A stretch of 52,904 bases of DNA. Source: a virus. The translations under genes were made by a program, and so were the position numbers. The DNA is taken from the IMG/VR virus record IMGVR_UViG_3300014838_000028, positions 1-52,904 of that record; one strand, 5' to 3'. Positions 7,178 to 52,904 of this stretch are shown one piece after another. The notes under the pieces were generated by a model. That model was given only the letters and a program-made list of their open reading frames with translations, made no database searches and was not told the DNA's origin. Each line of letters starts with the position of its first letter. Positions within the stretch are counted from its first letter, which is position 1.

Positions 7178-7517
7178 AAGGGCATGCTTACAGTGTGGCG
7201 CCGCCTTTAGTGGTGAGGGATCGTATTGCAGTCGACATCGTCGGGTCCGTAATGCTGATCCGGCAGGGCGTGGTTATGGATCGGTATGGAAACGGAAGAG
7301 CAGGGCTATCCGCACGGCATGGGTAAATGCAAACGGTTTGGTATGTCCCGGCACAAAATGGTGTGTTATTCCAAATGTGGCTCATCATTGCTTAGACCTA
7401 ACGGTCGACCATGACCGAGGCGAAGTAATGTGCCGATCCGCTAACAGTCGAAAAGGTGCCGGCGAGGATCGCTGGTCCGATAAGCCTAAAGGAGGTAACC
7501 GTGTTGTCCGGTTCTAA
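7170..7517 (+). CDS. Small HNH endonuclease
   Basis: 115 residues from ATG 7170. An N-terminal zinc knuckle (CLQCGAAF...YCSRH) is followed by YGSVWKRKSRAIRTAW and then LTVDHDRGEVMCRSANSRKG, which matches the HNH core: first His in VDH, Asn in SANSRKG, and the final basic residue. The usual CxxC of this motif is reduced to one Cys. HNH proteins nick or cut DNA; in phages they may assist packaging or act as mobile elements. This one lies far from the terminase, so a mobile origin is favoured. Confidence 0.65.
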   Translation: MAKRACLQCGAAFSGEGSYCSRHRRVRNADPAGRGYGSVWKRKSRAIRTAWVNANGLVCPGTKWCVIPNVAHHCLDLTVDHDRGEVMCRSANSRKGAGEDRWSDKPKGGNRVVRF

Positions 7518-7545
7518 AGTCTCGTGTGGGCATTCTAGTGAATAG
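7501..7545 (+). CDS. Possible 14-residue peptide with strong ribosome site
   Basis: AAAGGAGGTAACC (7488-7500) is one of the strongest ribosome binding sites in the window, and points to GTG 7501. The frame stops after 14 codons. It may be a leader peptide coupling translation to the gene at 7526, or the site may serve 7526 at long distance. Confidence 0.3.
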   Translation: MLSGSKVSCGHSSE

Positions 7546-7708
7546 CGGTGAGGAGATATTGGAATGGCTGTCCATGATAAACAAATGGGAACAGCAGCGG
7601 CTAATAACTTTTTGGGAGAGTTGGGAGCTATGCAGATATCCGACTCACCGAGCCTTTCTAAATCGTGCGGCTTATCTACGTATGAACGGGACCCGGAGAA
7701 TTGTCTAA
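7526..7708 (+). CDS. Small helical protein
   Basis: 60 residues from GTG 7526. Predicted helix-turn-helix-like layout (EEILEWLSMINKWEQQRLIT, then PTHRAFLNRAAYLRMNGTRR) with a basic end, so nucleic acid binding is possible. Not recognised as a named family. Overlaps the next gene by eight bases. Confidence 0.4.
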   Translation: MGILVNSGEEILEWLSMINKWEQQRLITFWESWELCRYPTHRAFLNRAAYLRMNGTRRIV

Positions 7709-7859
7709 GCGTTGCCGTTGTCCGTTGCCGAATTGGCTGAACAGTTGGGTATGCGATGCATGTGACCTTGGTTGCGAAGATGCGTCTTGTGAGTGCTTCA
7801 TTATCCTAGCTGCTATAAGGGATTTTCGTAAGGGTCATCCAGAACACAAGCAAATATAA
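7701..7859 (+). CDS. Cys-rich small protein
   Basis: 52 residues from TTG 7701, with CCGGAGA just upstream. Seven cysteines in the first 33 residues (CRCPLPNW, VCDACDLGCED, SCEC) suggest two tightly packed metal sites. The C-terminus is helical and basic. Unknown function; one of a series of such proteins between 5.1 and 8.2 kb. Confidence 0.45.
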   Translation: MSKRCRCPLPNWLNSWVCDACDLGCEDASCECFIILAAIRDFRKGHPEHKQI

Positions 7860-7870
7860 GGAGAATTTCA

Positions 7871-8038
7871 ATGGTCACATCTGATACAGAGGCGAGATGG
7901 GAAATGCACGATGTGAGGATCAAACAGATACAAACTCTAATGGCTGCTGGCGTGCCGGCTAGATTTTATGAAGAGTCCGATCCTGAACTAGCTAAACTAT
8001 TGGGCGATCTTGTTTCAGCCGTCGAGTTTTTGCTATGA
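7871..8038 (+). CDS. Small hypothetical protein
   Basis: 55 residues from ATG 7871, with AAGGAGAA 5-6 bases upstream. Helical (EMHDVRIKQIQTLMAAGVPA, then ELAKLLGDLVSAVEF). No family recognised. Ends in the start of the next gene. Confidence 0.55.
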   Translation: MVTSDTEARWEMHDVRIKQIQTLMAAGVPARFYEESDPELAKLLGDLVSAVEFLL

Positions 8039-8175
8039 ATGCGGTCAGAGTTGAGTGTCCGAAGTGTCACAAAGGCATAAGCACCTCGCTTACTATCCTT
8101 GGTGCAGAGTGTCTGAAGTGTGGCGTTTTACTGGTCGACGTTGATGGCAAGCGATGCAAAAAGGCGATCTTGTGA
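8035..8175 (+). CDS. Small zinc-ribbon protein
   Basis: 46 residues from ATG 8035 (ATGA overlap). CPKCHKG and CLKCG, 16 residues apart, form a complete four-cysteine zinc ribbon, with a fifth Cys near the end. Could bind nucleic acid or a host protein; no further call. Confidence 0.55.
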   Translation: MNAVRVECPKCHKGISTSLTILGAECLKCGVLLVDVDGKRCKKAIL

Positions 8176-8176
8176 G

Positions 8177-8248
8177 ATGCGCCGGCTTGTTCGTGTCATG
8201 TGGCAAGGCATCGAGAATCTAGGGACGGCGAATCTCTATTATGAGTGA
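8177..8248 (+). CDS. Possible 23-residue peptide (first member of a duplicated pair)
   Basis: ATG 8177 to TGA 8248. Basic N-terminus (RRLVRVMW) and an end in YYE that overlaps ATGAGTGAACG of the next gene. The same arrangement recurs at 8369-8437, where a 22-residue frame ends in DYE over ATGAGTGAACG. The recurrence is the main support. Confidence 0.3.
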   Translation: MRRLVRVMWQGIENLGTANLYYE

Positions 8249-8372
8249 ACGTCGATATAGACTGAGAATGTGGCTCTATAACCGAGGTCTTGTGAACTTT
8301 GATCGAGAATGGTATTGCTGGGAAACGAGTTATCCGATTATGAAGCCTTTCACATGGTGGTTCAACCGATGA
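8241..8372 (+). CDS. Small aromatic/basic protein
   Basis: 43 residues from ATG 8241 (begins MSERRYRLRMWLYNRGLVNF). The first four residues, MSER, match those of the gene at 8430, as part of a local tandem duplication. No known family. Confidence 0.35.
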   Translation: MSERRYRLRMWLYNRGLVNFDREWYCWETSYPIMKPFTWWFNR

Positions 8373-8437
8373 ACCGGCTCGGCCGTTGGCTCGTTCGTGT
8401 CTTGTTGCGAATTTTGAACGGAGTCGATTATGAGTGA
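8369..8437 (+). CDS. Possible 22-residue peptide (second member of duplicated pair)
   Basis: ATG 8369 overlaps the upstream stop and the frame ends over the ATG at 8430. Basic, hydrophobic (RLGRWLVRVLLRILNGVDYE); compare the peptide at 8177. Might form an amphipathic helix at a membrane. Confidence 0.3.
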   Translation: MNRLGRWLVRVLLRILNGVDYE

Positions 8438-8666
8438 ACGGGAGAAATACTTCGCCACACTATTAGGTGTCGATCCGTTGACTCGCCGCACGCATACTTT
8501 CAAGGCTGCACGCTGGCGCCGTTATTGGCTCGTCAGTGTGCGGCCGTTTTTGCGTTGGGGTAGACAGAGCTTAGGTGCGGTGATGTGTTATTGGCCACGA
8601 CCTAATAAATGGCGCCATCGTAAAGAGTACGGCGGTCAATCGTGGGACAAGTGGCCACCGGATTAG
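8430..8666 (+). CDS. Basic hypothetical protein
   Basis: 78 residues from ATG 8430 with ACGGAGT upstream. Very basic and tryptophan-rich (KAARWRRYWLVSVRPFLRWG, then KWRHRKEYGG). Probably nucleic acid or membrane associated; no family recognised. Confidence 0.45.
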   Translation: MSEREKYFATLLGVDPLTRRTHTFKAARWRRYWLVSVRPFLRWGRQSLGAVMCYWPRPNKWRHRKEYGGQSWDKWPPD

Positions 8667-8681
8667 AAATGAGGCGCCGGC

Positions 8682-8768
8682 ATGATCGGTCTAGTTGCGT
8701 TGATATGGGCCGCAGTAGTCATAAGCGGTCTTGTGAGGTCAATCGGTGGGCGACCGTTGCAGCTATAG
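8682..8768 (+). CDS. Tiny membrane peptide
   Basis: 28 residues from ATG 8682, mostly one hydrophobic helix (IGLVALIWAAVVISGLV) with a basic end. GAGGCG lies 9 bases upstream. Last recognisable gene before the gene-free repeat region. Confidence 0.35.
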   Translation: MIGLVALIWAAVVISGLVRSIGGRPLQL

Positions 8769-8950
8769 CGGGCATGCCGGCATATGACGGTACACGAGGC
8801 TACAGACGGCACAGATGAGCAGTGGAGATGCCGGCGGCTTGTATAAGGCACTTGTAGGGCCTTTCTAGCCTGGTCGGCATGCCTAGCATGCTAGTCATAG
8901 CCTCCCTAGGTCAATCGACAGCAGAAGGGCCTACAGGGGCCTGTTTTTGA
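8769..8950. other. Gene-free stretch with weak hairpins
   Basis: No supported gene. Contains palindromic stretches around GGCATGCC/GCATGC (8774-8890) and, at 8929-8947, GGCC repeats followed by five T residues, a weak terminator candidate for the operon ending at 8768. Confidence 0.4.
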
Positions 8951-8954
8951 AGGT

Positions 8955-9020
8955 GTGCTAGTGGCTGCGATGGGTCGATGGCCTAGCCTTACTAGACCGA
9001 TGATCCTAGGCCACTAGCAC
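8955..9020. repeat. Long inverted repeat
   Basis: GTGCTAGTGGC (8955-8965) and GCCACTAGCAC (9010-9020) are perfect inverted copies 44 bases apart; the interior also has partial complementarity (GGTCGATGGCCTAG against CTAGACCGATGATCC). It could extrude as a cruciform or fold as RNA. It lies beside the iteron region. Confidence 0.7.
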
Positions 9021-9029
9021 GAAATGATG

Positions 9030-9137
9030 AGCAGATACAACGCTAGTTGCCAGGTCACACCTAAACTATCGAGCAAATATAACGGTTTCTAGGCAGTGCC
9101 TAGCAAGGAGACATGAAATTCTCGAGCAAATACAACG
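9030..9137. repeat. Three direct repeats AGCAAATAYAACG
   Basis: Copies at 9030-9042 (AGCAGATACAACG), 9072-9084 (AGCAAATATAACG) and 9125-9137 (AGCAAATACAACG), all on the same strand and 42 and 53 bases apart. Two are preceded by CG. The A/T-rich core and regular direction fit a protein-binding site near an origin. Confidence 0.65.
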
Positions 9138-9380
9138 ATAGTTTATAGGTAGCCTCGATCCGTTGGCTGGACAAGGTAGGACCAAAGGGGGACCCTATTT
9201 GATATATGGGTAGGGTACATATTCTGAGGTCACACCATACATTATGACTACATATAGGTTGCATTATCAAGTCGATAGTGTGACGTATAGGCAGCCAGAA
9301 TGTGGCCACATACGGGCACCATTCTATGGTGCCGTCCACTGTCTTATAGGTCAACATACGGTAGCGTTAGCAAGTGTGAC

Positions 9381-9690
9381 AGTGTGCAATAGCGGGCACT
9401 ATATGAGGCTAGCACAGTGTGCAATAGCGGGCACGTTATGGCTGAGGTTATGGCGAGGCGGGCATGCTATAGCGGGCATGTTATGGCGAGGCTAGGTGTG
9501 CAATAGGACGGCGGGCACGGTACATTAGGACGGCGGGCCTAGGGTGCAATAGGTGACAATAGGGTGACAATAGCGGGCACGTTATGGCGAGCATTAGCGG
9601 GCACGATAGCGGGCACGTTATGGCGGGCATGCTGCATTAGGCCCTGCATTAGGGCTGCAATGCCGATGCATTATGCCTTGCATTAGGGTT
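9381..9690. repeat. Iteron-like repeat array, candidate replication origin
   Basis: The 17-bp unit TAGCGGGCACGTTATGG occurs at 9425-9441, 9571-9587 and 9607-9623, with a one-base variant at 9470-9486. A 19-bp unit AGTGTGCAATAGCGGGCAC occurs at 9381-9399 and 9416-9434. GCGGGCA/GCGGGCC cores number about ten, and GCATTAGG-type repeats fill 9640-9700. Dense same-strand repeats in the only 1.1-kb gene-free stretch of this arm are typical of replication initiator binding sites. The RepA-like helicase is 4 kb to the left. No function has been shown. Confidence 0.6.
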
Positions 9691-9963
9691 TAGCATTGAT
9701 GACTAACTACTAATGAATAGAGTTTGTGTCAACCTATAAACATATGGATTGACCAGCGAATTCGCAGGTGGATACACGATAAACATATGCGGGTAGGGGG
9801 TAAGGTGAAATTGATAAACTCTCGGACACGGCTCTCTGGGCCGCTGACATCGTCTACGGGTTTTACATGTCCCTGACCTGCACTTATACGGCTTGTTGAA
9901 TACACATTCATGCCAAATAAGGCTTATATCATAACGCTTTTTGGCACAATTCGAGGGAGGGAA
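9691..9963 (+). promoter_or_regulatory. Leader region with candidate promoter
   Basis: GATAAACATATG-type repeats (around 9735 and 9777) and the palindrome GCGAATTCGC (9757-9766) lie upstream. CTGACC (9873-9878) and TTGAAT (9896-9901) are 17 bases apart, a plausible promoter for the gene at 9964; the -35 shares CTGACCTGC with the elements at 5600 and 5690. No convincing gene in this stretch. Confidence 0.4.
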
Positions 9964-48392: not shown

Positions 48393-49137
48393 CATCTCAA
48401 TTCTGATACACGGTGAACCCGGTTCTGGCAAAAGCTGGCTTGGCCAGACTGGACCTAGGCCGATACTCACACTCGATGCTGAAGGCGGCTCACGGTTCGC
48501 ACGCCGGCACGGTGAAAAAGTGCGGCGTGTTGTGTGGGACCCGGAAGAAGACGGACCACCTGAGTACGACGGCACCTGGGACAATTGCGTTGTCTACGTG
48601 CGAGACTTCGACACGATGCGCCAAGTCTTCAAGTGGCTGAATGAAAACGAGCACCCGTTCAAAACTCTCGTGCTCGACTCGCTGACTGAGATACAGCAGC
48701 GTTGTAAGGACGCACTATTAGGAATGGATGAGAGAACAGAAGACGGAGCAATGACGCATATGTCTGAGCGGCAATGGGGTCTATTACTCGACTCAATGAA
48801 AAACCTTGTGCGCTCTATGCGTGACCTCACTTTTCACCCTGATTACCCGCTCGACGCTGTCGTGATCTTAGCCCTAACAGTGAAGAAGGAAGGGGAATTC
48901 AAACCAGCCGTGCAGGGTGCATTAGGCACTCACTTACCTGGGTTTATGGACGTCGAGGGGTTCCTCGGTGTCGTAGAATCAGAAACAGGTAAGATGCAAC
49001 GCAAGTTACGCATCCAACCCAACGAGGTTGTCGAAGCGAAGGATAGAACCTATGTCCTGACTGAGCATTTCGGGAGAATAATCTCGGAACCTGATATAGA
49101 AGATATGTTGAAGGTATTGAATGATGAAGAAAGCTGA
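48379..49137 (+). CDS. Sak4-like RecA-fold recombinase/ATPase
   Basis: 252 residues. ATG 48379 is preferred to 48364 because GGAGG (48371-48375) is just upstream. GEPGSGKS (12-19) is the Walker A motif, TLDAEGGSRF follows, and FKTLVLDSLTEIQQ is the Walker B strand, as in phage Sak4/AAA_24 proteins that promote single-strand annealing together with an SSB. Next to a Cas4-like nuclease and an ssDNA-binding gene, giving a complete recombination set. Last bases overlap the LAGLIDADG gene. Confidence 0.75.
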   Translation: MHRNSISILIHGEPGSGKSWLGQTGPRPILTLDAEGGSRFARRHGEKVRRVVWDPEEDGPPEYDGTWDNCVVYVRDFDTMRQVFKWLNENEHPFKTLVLDSLTEIQQRCKDALLGMDERTEDGAMTHMSERQWGLLLDSMKNLVRSMRDLTFHPDYPLDAVVILALTVKKEGEFKPAVQGALGTHLPGFMDVEGFLGVVESETGKMQRKLRIQPNEVVEAKDRTYVLTEHFGRIISEPDIEDMLKVLNDEES

Positions 49138-49531
49138 TATAGCATGGGCTGCGGGGTTGTTTGAAGGTGAGGGCTGTATATCAGAAACACATACCGATAG
49201 ACCTATAAGTCGTCGGGGGTATCAAGTTCACTTAGGAATGTGCGATGAAGATGCAGTGAACAGACTAGAATATCTATTTCCATCTCCTAATGGACTTCAC
49301 ATAAGAAAACCTCCCGGTAAGGATACTTATCTTCCTCAATATATTTGGAGCAGAAGTTCAAAGGAAGGTGTAGCTGAGTTTCTTGAAGCTATATTGCCTT
49401 TCCTTTGTCATCGTCGTGCTGCCAAAGCTTATGAAGCATTATCTTGGGCTTATTCACCTAGACCTAAGAGGATAGACTACGAAACAAAACGCAAGCATTA
49501 TACCCGCAAATCCACACAGGAGGAAAAATAA
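49121..49531 (+). CDS. LAGLIDADG-type homing endonuclease
   Basis: 136 residues from ATG 49121 (or 49124). IAWAAGLFEGEGCISE is a single LAGLIDADG motif; the following beta strands and RRGYQVHLGMC fit the family, whose members with a single motif act as dimers. It is free-standing between recombinase and SSB genes and is more A/T-rich than they are, which fits recent gain. It cuts a specific DNA site, normally in phages lacking the gene, and so spreads. Confidence 0.75.
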   Translation: MMKKADIAWAAGLFEGEGCISETHTDRPISRRGYQVHLGMCDEDAVNRLEYLFPSPNGLHIRKPPGKDTYLPQYIWSRSSKEGVAEFLEAILPFLCHRRAAKAYEALSWAYSPRPKRIDYETKRKHYTRKSTQEEK

Positions 49532-49534
49532 CTA

Positions 49535-50104
49535 ATGGCATCTACATCCCTAGCCGATCTTATTCGTGATGTTGATCCCAGCAAGTCCGACTTCGCACTG
49601 CTCCCGCCCGGAGACTACGAGGCCGAGCTATTTGAGATCGAGCTTACGAAGTCAAGCAACAAAAACCCCATGTTCAAGATCGTCTATAAGGTGACTGACG
49701 AGGAATTCAAGAACCGCCGGCTTTTCCACCAGATCACGTTTACCGAGACGAACGCCGGCATTTCTGTCAGGCAGATGCTCGCTTCCGGTGCCCCGTCTCA
49801 GAATGATATTGCTGACGCACTGGGTGATCAGAAGGCTGCTCTGGCCCTTGGCAAGGCGATGGTCGGAAGTGCCTGCTTGCTTCACGTCTATATTGACGAC
49901 GGGCGCAAGTTCGACGGCAAGGAGCGGAACAAGATTTCCAATGTCTCCGCTGTAGAAAACGCCACTAAGGCGGCGTTTTCTGATGATGACGAGAAGCCGG
50001 CTAAGAAGAAGGGCAAGAAAGCTGCCGCTGCTGCCGCTGCTGCCGTCGAGGAAGAGAAGCCGGCTGCAAAGAAAGGCCCGAGTCGGCCGGCAACGCCTTT
50101 CTAA
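49535..50104 (+). CDS. ssDNA-binding protein (DUF669-like)
   Basis: 189 residues from ATG 49535, AGGAGGAA upstream. FALLPPGDYEAELFEIELTK, NPMFKIVYKVTDEEFKNRRL and FHQITF form an OB-type beta core like DUF669 phage proteins found with Sak4 recombinases. The C-terminal 50 residues are Lys/Ala-rich then acidic (DDDEKPAKKKGKKAAAAA), ending in ATPF, reminiscent of flexible SSB tails. It would coat single-stranded DNA during replication and annealing. Confidence 0.65.
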   Translation: MASTSLADLIRDVDPSKSDFALLPPGDYEAELFEIELTKSSNKNPMFKIVYKVTDEEFKNRRLFHQITFTETNAGISVRQMLASGAPSQNDIADALGDQKAALALGKAMVGSACLLHVYIDDGRKFDGKERNKISNVSAVENATKAAFSDDDEKPAKKKGKKAAAAAAAAVEEEKPAAKKGPSRPATPF

Positions 50105-50860
50105 ATGCTAAAAAAAGCATTGAAGTTAGCTGAGAAAACGGGATGGCGTGTGTTCCCTGTGGGCATCGTCTCCCAAGCCGGTGGCAAAACAAATAAGCGC
50201 CCGCTCTGCAAATGGAAGTCCGAGGCATCGAACACGCCAGAGGGTATCAAGGCCCTCTGGCGGCGAAACTCTTATGCAGCAATAGGAGTTGCGACCGGTG
50301 CTGAGAATGGGCTTTATGTCATCGACGTCGATGACCCCGATGCAGTCGAGCGTGCTGGATTCGATGCGCACTCGCTAGCCTTCAATGCCGTCGAGATGCC
50401 AACTAACAGACCGGGCGGAATGCATTACTACTTCGGGCCTCCAGAGGACGGCAAGCCTGTTCGTAACTCAGCCGACGATGGTATCGACGTGCGAGGCGAC
50501 GGGGGATTTGTCGTTGTGTGGTCTAAGTTTCCCGGTGGTCCTCTTGAACCGTTACCGGAGAATATAGCTACCTGGGCACGCACTCGGACTGCGAGTGTCG
50601 CAACTGATACGGCTGCGGTAGGGGAAATTATCCCCGAGGGTGTACGAGAGAGCACTCTCGTAAGCATGGCAGGATCACTGTGGCGCCGAGGCTTTGTGCT
50701 CGACGCCGTGCGTGCTGCCCTATGGGTACAGAATGTCCAAAGGTGCGTGCCACCTTTGGAAGAGGAAGCAGTCGAGCGCATAGCCGCATCGGTGACCAGA
50801 TACGAGCGGGACGATACCAACGTCTCGGCAGTCCTGAGCGCCCTGAGGCGGCTGAAGTAA
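50105..50860 (+). CDS. Primase-polymerase (Prim-pol)
   Basis: 251 residues from ATG 50105, one base after the previous stop codon. GWRVFPVG, a basic KRPLCKWKSEAS segment, AIGVATGAENGLYVIDVDDP (catalytic Asp74, Asp76) and NRPGGMHYYF match the bifunctional primase/polymerase N-terminal fold. The last 80 residues have the PriCT-like helical part. It makes primers for the family A polymerase. The RepA-like helicase that would complete the primosome is at 3910. Confidence 0.75.
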   Translation: MLKKALKLAEKTGWRVFPVGIVSQAGGKTNKRPLCKWKSEASNTPEGIKALWRRNSYAAIGVATGAENGLYVIDVDDPDAVERAGFDAHSLAFNAVEMPTNRPGGMHYYFGPPEDGKPVRNSADDGIDVRGDGGFVVVWSKFPGGPLEPLPENIATWARTRTASVATDTAAVGEIIPEGVRESTLVSMAGSLWRRGFVLDAVRAALWVQNVQRCVPPLEEEAVERIAASVTRYERDDTNVSAVLSALRRLK

Positions 50861-50865
50861 CGAGC

Positions 50866-50903
50866 AGGGCCGGTGATGCCGTAAGGTGTCGCCGGCCCTT
50901 TTG
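50866..50903 (+). terminator. Intrinsic terminator after the primase
   Basis: AGGGCCGG (50866-50873) pairs with CCGGCCCT (50892-50899) and is followed by TTT. It ends the long replication transcript. Confidence 0.8.
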
Positions 50904-51066
50904 GCGTTTACGGGGGCCAGGTTTTTCGGCCTGCCGGCGATGTCGACCAAAACAGGGCCGTCGCAAAGGGGTTTTCACCCTGGTCACAGCCGGTTTTTGG
51001 CTGGCCGGCGGGCGGTCGAAACTGGGGGCTGGCGGGTAGCCTGGCGGGTAGCTGGCAGAGGCAGAT
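50904..51066. other. GC-rich gene-free stretch with short repeats
   Basis: No supported gene. Several hairpin-forming stretches (GGCC/GGCC around 50915-50935; AGCC/GGCT around 50988-51003) and a perfect 12-bp tandem repeat CTGGCGGGTAGC at 51029-51052. It separates the terminator from the promoter-like element at 51067. Confidence 0.5.
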
Positions 51067-51097
51067 TTGACCTGAGCATTTAGCAGGATGGCTAAAC
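51067..51097 (+). promoter_or_regulatory. Promoter/operator-like element, copy 3
   Basis: TTGACCTG (51067-51074) is followed after three bases by ATTTAGCA-GGAT-GGCTAAAC (51078-51097), matching the element at 5600-5630 in sequence and spacing. TTGACC is a good -35 box. It lies about 90 bases before the structured region at 51190 and probably controls it. Confidence 0.55.
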
Positions 51098-51189
51098 ACG
51101 AGATGGCATGAAGTGATGCCCAACCGCCGCCACCAGCTCTCTTTGGCGAGACGTTTGCCCTGGTAGGAAGGTTGTTTGAGAAATGTCCA

Positions 51190-51970
51190 CATTTGACCCC
51201 CGGACCTGCTACCATGGTGTTTGGAAGGCGAAAGGCCCGGAAGGGCCAGAGCAGACAGAGTCAGGGTCAGCCCCTCACCTTCCAAGGGAAGGGAACCCGG
51301 AGACGGGGACCCGACCAAGGGTCCGGGATAGCCGGGCAACGGAGGCTAGGTCGGAGGTCAGACCGCATAAACCTCAAAGACCAGGTTGGGCGCCTTGGCA
51401 AGCCCAGGAGGAAACTCTCAAGGAATTGAGAAGTCACCGTTGCGATTAGCGCACATCAAAAGTGATCGCAGGCGAGCCACCCGAAAGGGTGCCGCTAAAC
51501 CGGTGCCGGCAGGAGGAAAGGCCGGTTTGATACTTCGGTGTTCTGCGGGACCCTCCAAAGGAGCTTCAGCCCTTAGAGCTAAAAATGCGAATTTCTAGCA
51601 CGGTTATTCGGGCGGTTCTCCTGAAGGTGCCACTTGCATACTAACCAACGCAAGCTTGCACATTCGCCCCACCGGGACGAATTCCTAAGCAAGTCTCTAC
51701 AGTGTTAGCCACTGACCAACCACCACCTACAGGCAACCCGCCACACCCTGACCGTTAGATAAGTCGATTTCCCTTAGCACTGTTGACGAACCCTGGTACA
51801 AGGGTAGATGCAATGCCACACAAGCCGTTTCATGGCTTGCCCCTGGTGCTTGTAGGTTGCATCGCTGTGGATTTGCGGTATGTCCCGCAGGCCCCACAGC
51901 AAACGCCATAACCGGTCCCACTGATCCTCACGAGGGGAGGGAGCAACTAGTTATGGCGTTTGCTGTAGGG
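51190..51970 (+). ncRNA. Candidate large structured non-coding RNA
   Basis: No convincing protein in about 780 bases, but many compact hairpins: GGCCC-GGAA-GGGCC (51234-51247), CCTTCC/GGAAGG (51278-51292), GGACCC/GGGTCC (51307-51324), TGGGC/GCCCA (51387-51406), TCTCAA-GGAA-TTGAGA (51416-51431), TGCGAT/ATCGCA (51441-51470), CACCC-GAAA-GGGTG (51478-51491), AAACCGG/CCGGTTT (51497-51528), ATAC-TTCG-GTGT (51530-51541), CTCC/GGAG (51553-51563). Its 3' end has CTGTGG/CCACAG with inner TGCGG/CCGCA (51865-51899) and a 17-bp stem (51896-51966). GNRA, GGAA and UUCG loops are typical of stable RNAs. Size and phage setting recall large ornate RNAs such as GOLLD and ROOL, but I cannot match it to either. 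Group I/II intron core motifs were looked for and not found. Exact ends are not known. Confidence 0.65.
51896..51966 (+). terminator. 17-bp perfect stem at the end of the structured region
   Basis: ACAGCAAACGCCATAAC (51896-51912) and GTTATGGCGTTTGCTGT (51950-51966) are perfect complements; inside are TCCC/GGGA and CCTC/GAGG pairs. No T-run follows. It shares bases 51896-51899 with the hairpin at 51865-51899, so the two may alternate. Could close the RNA's 3' domain or be a processing site. Confidence 0.7.
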
Positions 51971-51998
51971 CCAACATCCAACTAAGAAAGGACCCGAG

Positions 51999-52148
51999 AT
52001 GGATTGCAATTGCAATTGGTTCCCCAATCAGGCGCACACGCATTGCACTGATAATCACCATGTCTTCTGGTGCCAATTCCACCAGGCCCCCGAGGATTTC
52101 GACCAACACAGCGACCATTGCAACACCTGTGGTGGCCATAACCACTAG
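51999..52148 (+). CDS. Histidine/cysteine-rich microprotein
   Basis: 49 residues from ATG 51999 with AGAAAGGA upstream. Nine His and six Cys (CNCNWFPNQAHTHC, NHHVFWCQFH, HSDHCNTCGGHNH) make it very likely to bind zinc or another metal. It is the first gene after the structured RNA. No family recognised. Confidence 0.55.
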   Translation: MDCNCNWFPNQAHTHCTDNHHVFWCQFHQAPEDFDQHSDHCNTCGGHNH

Positions 52149-52482
52149 CGTCAGCACCGAGAGCACGACAGCATCCCTGACCGACAACGAATCGACGGTC
52201 GGTCCTCGCCTAACGGAGGATGCCTGCGAACGAACACGCAGGGAGTAACGGGAGCTAGTTTTGATAACCGCTGATAGTCTTGGCAATCTCGACATATTCA
52301 CACACAACCAGCTATCTACTGCCGGCGCAGTTTGTGCCGCTAAGCGGCGTACCCCGAGCATGATGCGAAGGGACATGGGCAAAGGCAGGCGGTTATCATT
52401 TACGGAGAAGGCTAAGCAGCAAGGCTCGAATAGACACCTACCCTCGGGGCAAAGCTCGGTACGACAAACTAAGGAGCATACA
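52149..52482. other. Stretch without a firm gene
   Basis: AACGGAGG (52211-52218) precedes ATG 52219, but that frame stops after 12 codons (52219-52257). From 52261 the frame of the next gene is open without a stop, so an N-terminal extension from TTG 52261 or ATG 52361 cannot be excluded; no ribosome site supports it. Confidence 0.35.
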
Positions 52483-52773
52483 ATGGCAAAAGTATCAGCA
52501 CGAGGCGCCCACAAGGTTGCCGGCGTTAGAGTCGACCACCCGGCCGATGGCAATTGGCGTTCACGCACTCGGTATGTACTACGCTCTGATAACAAGCTGC
52601 TCGAATCCTATCAAGTAGCTTGTCATTATGACGGTCAATCCGACTATTATGGGAGTGCCAACTACAGAATTCGTGGAAAGGTAAAGACTCCCGACACATT
52701 CGACCTTGCAGCATGGGCGCAGAAGCAGCACCCGCTGTCCACAATCACTCCCGACAAGGACGGTTGGAGATAA
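52483..52773 (+). CDS. Hypothetical early phage protein
   Basis: 96 residues from ATG 52483, chosen for AAGGAGCA seven bases upstream. KVSARGAHKVAGVRVDHPAD and TRYVLRSDNKLLESYQVACH resemble a small beta-type family found in early regions of actinophages. Function unknown. The stop overlaps the next ATG (TAATG). Confidence 0.55.
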   Translation: MAKVSARGAHKVAGVRVDHPADGNWRSRTRYVLRSDNKLLESYQVACHYDGQSDYYGSANYRIRGKVKTPDTFDLAAWAQKQHPLSTITPDKDGWR

Positions 52774-52904
52774 TGACCAGAGCCGAACACGAAGCCGTCG
52801 AGCGGGATCATAAGATGGCCGAACATCTCCGTGACCAGCACCTTACCTGGTCCACTTCCACCTTGACGCATGACTTTCTCCACAGCGACGAAGCCTGTGC
52901 AATC
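52773..52904 (+). CDS. Hypothetical protein, 3' end outside window
   Basis: 44 codons from ATG 52773 to the window edge. Charged, His-rich helical start (EHEAVERDHKMAEHLRDQHL). Too short to classify. Confidence 0.45.
   Translation, partial: MTRAEHEAVERDHKMAEHLRDQHLTWSTSTLTHDFLHSDEACAI

Follow-up and report, generated by a model that had tools for sequence, protein, structure and literature searches.

A plus-strand region rich in GNRA-capped stems and without credible genes points to a structured RNA in a phage genome

Results

The window analysed here is the whole 52,904 bases of the IMG/VR virus record IMGVR_UViG_3300014838_000028, which is classed as linear. Its replication genes follow the order DNA polymerase, RuvC-like, helicase, Cas4-like exonuclease, Sak4, homing-endonuclease-like ORF, SSB-like and prim-pol, which is largely common to phages of Microbacterium, Arthrobacter, Gordonia and Micrococcus; synteny, the sole basis of the RuvC-like assignment, suggests the identity of that gene. 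The nearest described relatives of the phage infect Actinomycetota. The best identity of its Sak4 is 40% among named phages and 51% on the amino acid level in IMG/VR (80 loci in the Sak4 alignment), and thus the phage is, as far as searched, without a near relative in the collections. Searches for related loci with the prim-pol, helicase and 96-aa proteins returned no near relatives either. The homing-endonuclease-like ORF (49121-49531) lies between Sak4 and the SSB-like gene and overlaps the end of Sak4. It carries the PHROG label HNH and contains a LAGLIDADG-like AGLFEGEG motif; in the inspected relatives the gene that occupies the SSB position comes directly after Sak4, without such an ORF. 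Elsewhere in the window, a stretch of about 2.4 kb (7517-9910) is devoid of ORFs of at least 110 codons and is a candidate origin or regulatory region; inside it, at 9379-9640, lie iteron-like repeats of AATAGCGGGCACGTTATGGC and variants thereof. ARAGORN found no tRNA or tmRNA in the window, the record being possibly a fragment.

The replication operon is closed after prim-pol by a plus-strand terminator-like hairpin followed by TTTT (50866-50902; 11-nt arms, 91% complementary and 12 nt apart). It was missed by the consensus scan owing to the scan's loop limit of 8, and it bears out the terminator that the original prediction had placed upstream of the region. The same prediction saw no believable protein in any frame of the DNA that follows, and this holds for 51150-51980, where the longest open frame has at most 92 codons, each frame contains 8-13 stops and none of the short ORFs matched PHROG. 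The next likely gene on the plus strand is a 49-codon Cys- and His-rich ORF (51999-52148), preceded by an AAAGGA ribosome-binding site and possibly the mRNA part of the same transcript as the RNA described below. No family match above chance was obtained for this ORF (one PHROG at E 0.094); its composition would be compatible with metal binding.

The principal finding concerns stems of at least 4 bp with at most one G-U pair that close a GNRA or UNCG tetraloop, here called capped stems. Between 51150 and 51975 there are seven such stems on the plus strand and none on the minus strand. The test was fixed after the original prediction had been read and is therefore not blind, but its margins are wide: 1000 dinucleotide shuffles gave a mean of 0.39 and a maximum of 4 capped stems, the remainder of the window contains about 0.38 per 831 nt of each strand, and a scan of both strands of 1.37 Mb of viral DNA found no second site with at least five within 600 nt. 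Even the 16S and 23S rRNAs of E. coli reach only three per 600 nt and are thus sparser than the core of the region. The enrichment is specific to GNRA loops (6 against 0.32), other purine loops not being enriched. Owing to their overlap the stems at 51411 and 51422 exclude each other, so that six of the seven remain. The predicted GGAA and GAAA caps are both present, whereas the predicted UUCG loop, at 51534, sits on a weak, G-U-rich stem.

Could such a pattern arise in GC-rich unassigned DNA without any RNA function, or in a missed or decayed gene? Only a single sequence is at hand and its number of hairpins is ordinary (see below), yet the Poisson probability of the capped-stem excess is 1.7e-7 per 831-nt window and the overlap of the stems at 51411 and 51422 does not account for it, which makes this explanation highly improbable. 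That the hairpins act as DNA, in an origin or packaging region, would fit an ORF-free stretch with a 23-nt-arm inverted repeat that has replication genes on one side and a new gene block on the other. However, a role in double-stranded DNA would not need capped loops confined to one strand, and repeats of the iteron kind are located elsewhere (9379-9640), so that we regard a DNA element as improbable.

The signal is concentrated in a purine-rich, GNRA-rich core on the plus strand (51150-51640), in which all features given in the following were predicted on that strand. The core begins with a hairpin (51161-51214) whose outer helix, TGGTAG/CTACCA, has a pairing probability of 0.87 and whose inner helices, AGGT/ACCT and AAATG/CATTT, are taken from the fold. 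It is followed by a stem formed by TTGGAAGG and CCTTCCAA (51221-51285), which encloses GGCCC-GGAA-GGGCC (51234-51247) and was detected by the inverted-repeat, capped-stem and local-helix scans, and by a CCCG-GAGA-CGGG hairpin from the capped-stem scan (51296-51307). Minimum-energy folds predict a GGGC-GC-CUUG-GC-AA-GCCC hairpin at 51388-51405, and the capped-stem scan identifies TCTCAA-GGAA-TTGAGA at 51416-51431 (pairing probability 0.91). A three-way junction is predicted at 51435-51505, where CACCG/CGGTG closes two hairpins, 51441-51470 and 51471-51496, the latter with a GAAA loop on the capped stem CACCC-GAAA-GGGTG (51478-51491); the arms have probabilities of 0.87-0.89, the closing helix is taken from the folds and a competing pairing exists. 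The last capped hairpin, found by both scan and fold, is GCTA-A-AAAT-GCGA-ATTT-C-TAGC (51578-51599, with AAAT-GCGA-ATTT at 51583-51594). The GNRA signal is limited to about 51230-51600. The C-rich 3' part (51640-51889) contains hairpins but no capped stem (none at 51640-51890), and this third may lie outside the RNA, its membership being less certain.

The decamer CAGGAGGAAA occurs twice in the core (51405-51414 and 51510-51519), in both cases preceded by a GC-rich hairpin. Pairing of its AGGAGG part is conceivable with CCTCC (51552), with CTCCTG (51618) or with the anti-Shine-Dalgarno sequence of 16S rRNA, none of this being clearly above chance. For the same reason the two AGGAGGAAA copies (51406 and 51511) were discarded as candidate binders of the 16S anti-Shine-Dalgarno sequence.

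Hairpin density, by which the region had originally been singled out, is not in itself evidence for an RNA, as the 15 confident local helices of the region are an ordinary count when compared to the 8-25 found in 20 other windows. Most of its local folding energies likewise lie in a range that is also seen elsewhere in the window. Relative to shuffled sequences the whole region folds with z -3.8 on the plus and -5.2 on the minus strand; since the minus-strand value stems largely from the long 3' stem, energy is uninformative on the strand, and because the minus strand scores better we dropped fold energy as strand proof. In 120-nt sliding windows the outlier is this same stem (z -8.3 on the plus and -9.5 on the minus strand), the other windows of the region ranging from +0.8 to -3.1 on the plus strand, as against an average of -0.8 over the whole window. 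What does differ between the strands is the composition of unpaired bases in the core, A accounting for 43% of them on the plus strand as compared to 22% on the minus strand; this excess of unpaired A is as expected for a folded RNA.

At the 3' end the predicted 17-bp perfect stem was recovered (51896-51912/51950-51966) and found to extend to 23-nt arms with 96% complementarity on the plus strand (51890-51972, pairing probability 0.97), its 37-nt apical part containing a further 5-bp stem. No U-tract follows the stem and it is therefore not an intrinsic terminator. Moreover, the ATG at 51999 lies about 26-27 nt downstream of the stem end with the AAAGGA site in between, which suggests that the transcript continues. 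RNase III cuts such stems at the early-mRNA processing sites of T7 and in rRNA operons, and the long stem is a probable candidate RNase III processing site. The promoter-like element claimed for the region did not emerge from our scan, which yielded no promoter above chance. With neither a promoter signal nor a terminator after the 3' stem, and with a ribosome-binding site and the 49-codon ORF downstream, the idea of an independent RNA gene was not upheld; a leader or a processed transcript would fit these features equally well.

Searches for known families were negative. cmscan gave no Rfam match in the window at gathering thresholds and, when run permissively, none at E up to 5 in 49000-52904; the only two permissive matches in the RNA region both have E above 1 and lie far below their cut-offs. 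The GOLLD model (RF02032), with its conserved 3' region, was unmatched in the record at E up to 10, a search that had no known-GOLLD genome as positive control, and the ROOL model (RF03087) was likewise unmatched at E up to 10, although the control genomes remained silent too, which makes the ROOL search weak when taken by itself; cmscan agrees. The original view that the RNA is new and without direct match is supported in this sense, and judged by sequence the RNA is unrelated to any Rfam family.

These searches also bear on the question of whether the region is a degenerate or highly diverged self-splicing intron or another ribozyme. Group I and II introns frequently carry GNRA loops, and the homing-endonuclease-like gene (49121-49531) lies 1.6 kb upstream. 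Against this, the conserved catalytic core of such introns was not detected: no Rfam intron or ribozyme model matched the RNA region at E up to 10, the group-II-D1D4-1 model (RF01998) was not found in the record at the same limit, the location is intergenic with no split gene, and the GAAA hairpin at 51471-51496 is without the 2-nt 3' bulge and the long lower helix of a group II domain V. An intron or ribozyme is hence quite improbable.

Collecting homologues by nucleotide search, as originally proposed, yielded none: when phage and plasmid sequences were searched with the region by blastn, and phages with the core down to E 10, the sole match was a 28-nt one by chance, mostly in Klebsiella phage portal genes. 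Nor was the RNA found, by blastn or by a covariance model built from one sequence with itself as the only positive control, at any of the 80 Sak4 loci, in 46 whole virus records related through Sak4 and helicase or in six named phages. DNA patterns searched in IMG/VR gave 0, 12, 8 and 5 matches, all of them chance by blastn and model, the best-looking one (L115) being rejected as a match within a coding region; a pattern searched in GTDB genomes gave 10 matches, all chance. As exact patterns catch only close relatives and the collections may lack records that are very close to the window, the RNA is an orphan in these collections, which is not proof of uniqueness.

Discussion

Single-sequence statistics, foremost the seven capped stems on one strand and none on the other, support well the original notion of a structured phage RNA, and we are confident that 51150-51975 encodes such an RNA on the plus strand. 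The region is free of ORFs, falls within 500-1000 nt and has strand-specific structure, which is in keeping with the broad kind of large structured phage RNAs. But is it a molecule of its own or part of an mRNA? The main rival to a released RNA is a plain leader, in which the RNA would be an extended 5' UTR for the 49-codon ORF and the genes that follow, acting in cis on their translation or stability without a separate function. The stem end lies 26 nt ahead of the ATG at 51999, AAAGGA is in between and no terminator follows the stem; this is in favour of such a leader, and so is the missing signal for a separate promoter. Then again, about 800 nt far exceeds the typical length of leaders and no riboswitch or leader family matches. 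We therefore consider a leader unlikely, if still to be reckoned with, and lean slightly towards a separate noncoding RNA that is released by processing.

For such a released RNA, the start of transcription would probably fall downstream of the terminator at 50902 but before 51160, and the transcript would run through to the ORF at 51999. Host RNase III could then cleave the 51890-51972 stem, as it does at the early processing sites of T7, and cleavage would free an RNA of about 750-800 nt from the downstream mRNA. GNRA loops usually serve to dock into helices, within or between copies of an RNA, and by analogy the most likely role of those in the core would be to contact helices of their own copy or of an adjacent one. 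Docking may in turn yield a compact particle like those of GOLLD and ROOL, which would act during infection; the idea draws on the usual role of GNRA loops and on the precedent of these two phage RNAs, which are of this size, form RNA-only cages and have no known function (PMC12286853). The released RNA has in its favour the strand-specific GNRA-capped stems, the lack of a credible gene and the long 3' stem, all of which are observed directly; the terminator-like hairpin that closes the upstream operon, the high share of unpaired A in the core and the precedent of the ICP1 RNA described below point the same way. Somewhat short of an even chance, and thus tentatively, we propose that it represents a new class comparable but unrelated to GOLLD and ROOL, which is freed at a built-in long stem and folded through dense GNRA contacts.

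How does the RNA compare with the large RNAs of other phages? GOLLD (about 800 nt) and ROOL (about 600-660 nt) are phage-borne and ornate and resemble it in size and setting, and the function of GOLLD, too, is unknown. They differ from it in that neither model is matched here. GOLLD often, though not universally, lies near tRNA islands; no tRNA was found in this window, which sets the region apart from both RNAs. Another parallel in setting is the most abundant transcript of ICP1, a noncoding RNA of about 800 nt established by RNA-seq in an ORF-free gap without tRNAs (PMC7567579). This RNA, located between gp139 and gp140, likewise has no Rfam match above the gathering score, but it shares no sequence similarity with the present one beyond chance and has few GNRA- or UNCG-capped stems, so that not every large phage RNA is marked by capped loops. 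The lncRNAs of phage K are also large and abundant noncoding RNAs of unknown function (PMC9241854); compared by description rather than by sequence one to one, they differ from this RNA in being located near tRNA genes. If the proposal is true, phages would appear to have come up with large RNAs of this kind repeatedly, the present one being unrelated to the others and carried by a phage whose nearest described relatives infect Actinomycetota. The core, being compact and GNRA-rich, lends itself to chemical probing and cryo-EM.

Beyond the 49-codon ORF, a 334-nt gap without a likely gene (52149-52482) was considered as a second structured RNA and set aside, its z being only -1.2 and its number of capped loops zero. 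The gap does contain a 10-bp perfect long-range pairing between TGATAACCGC and GCGGTTATCA (52262-52271/52389-52398).
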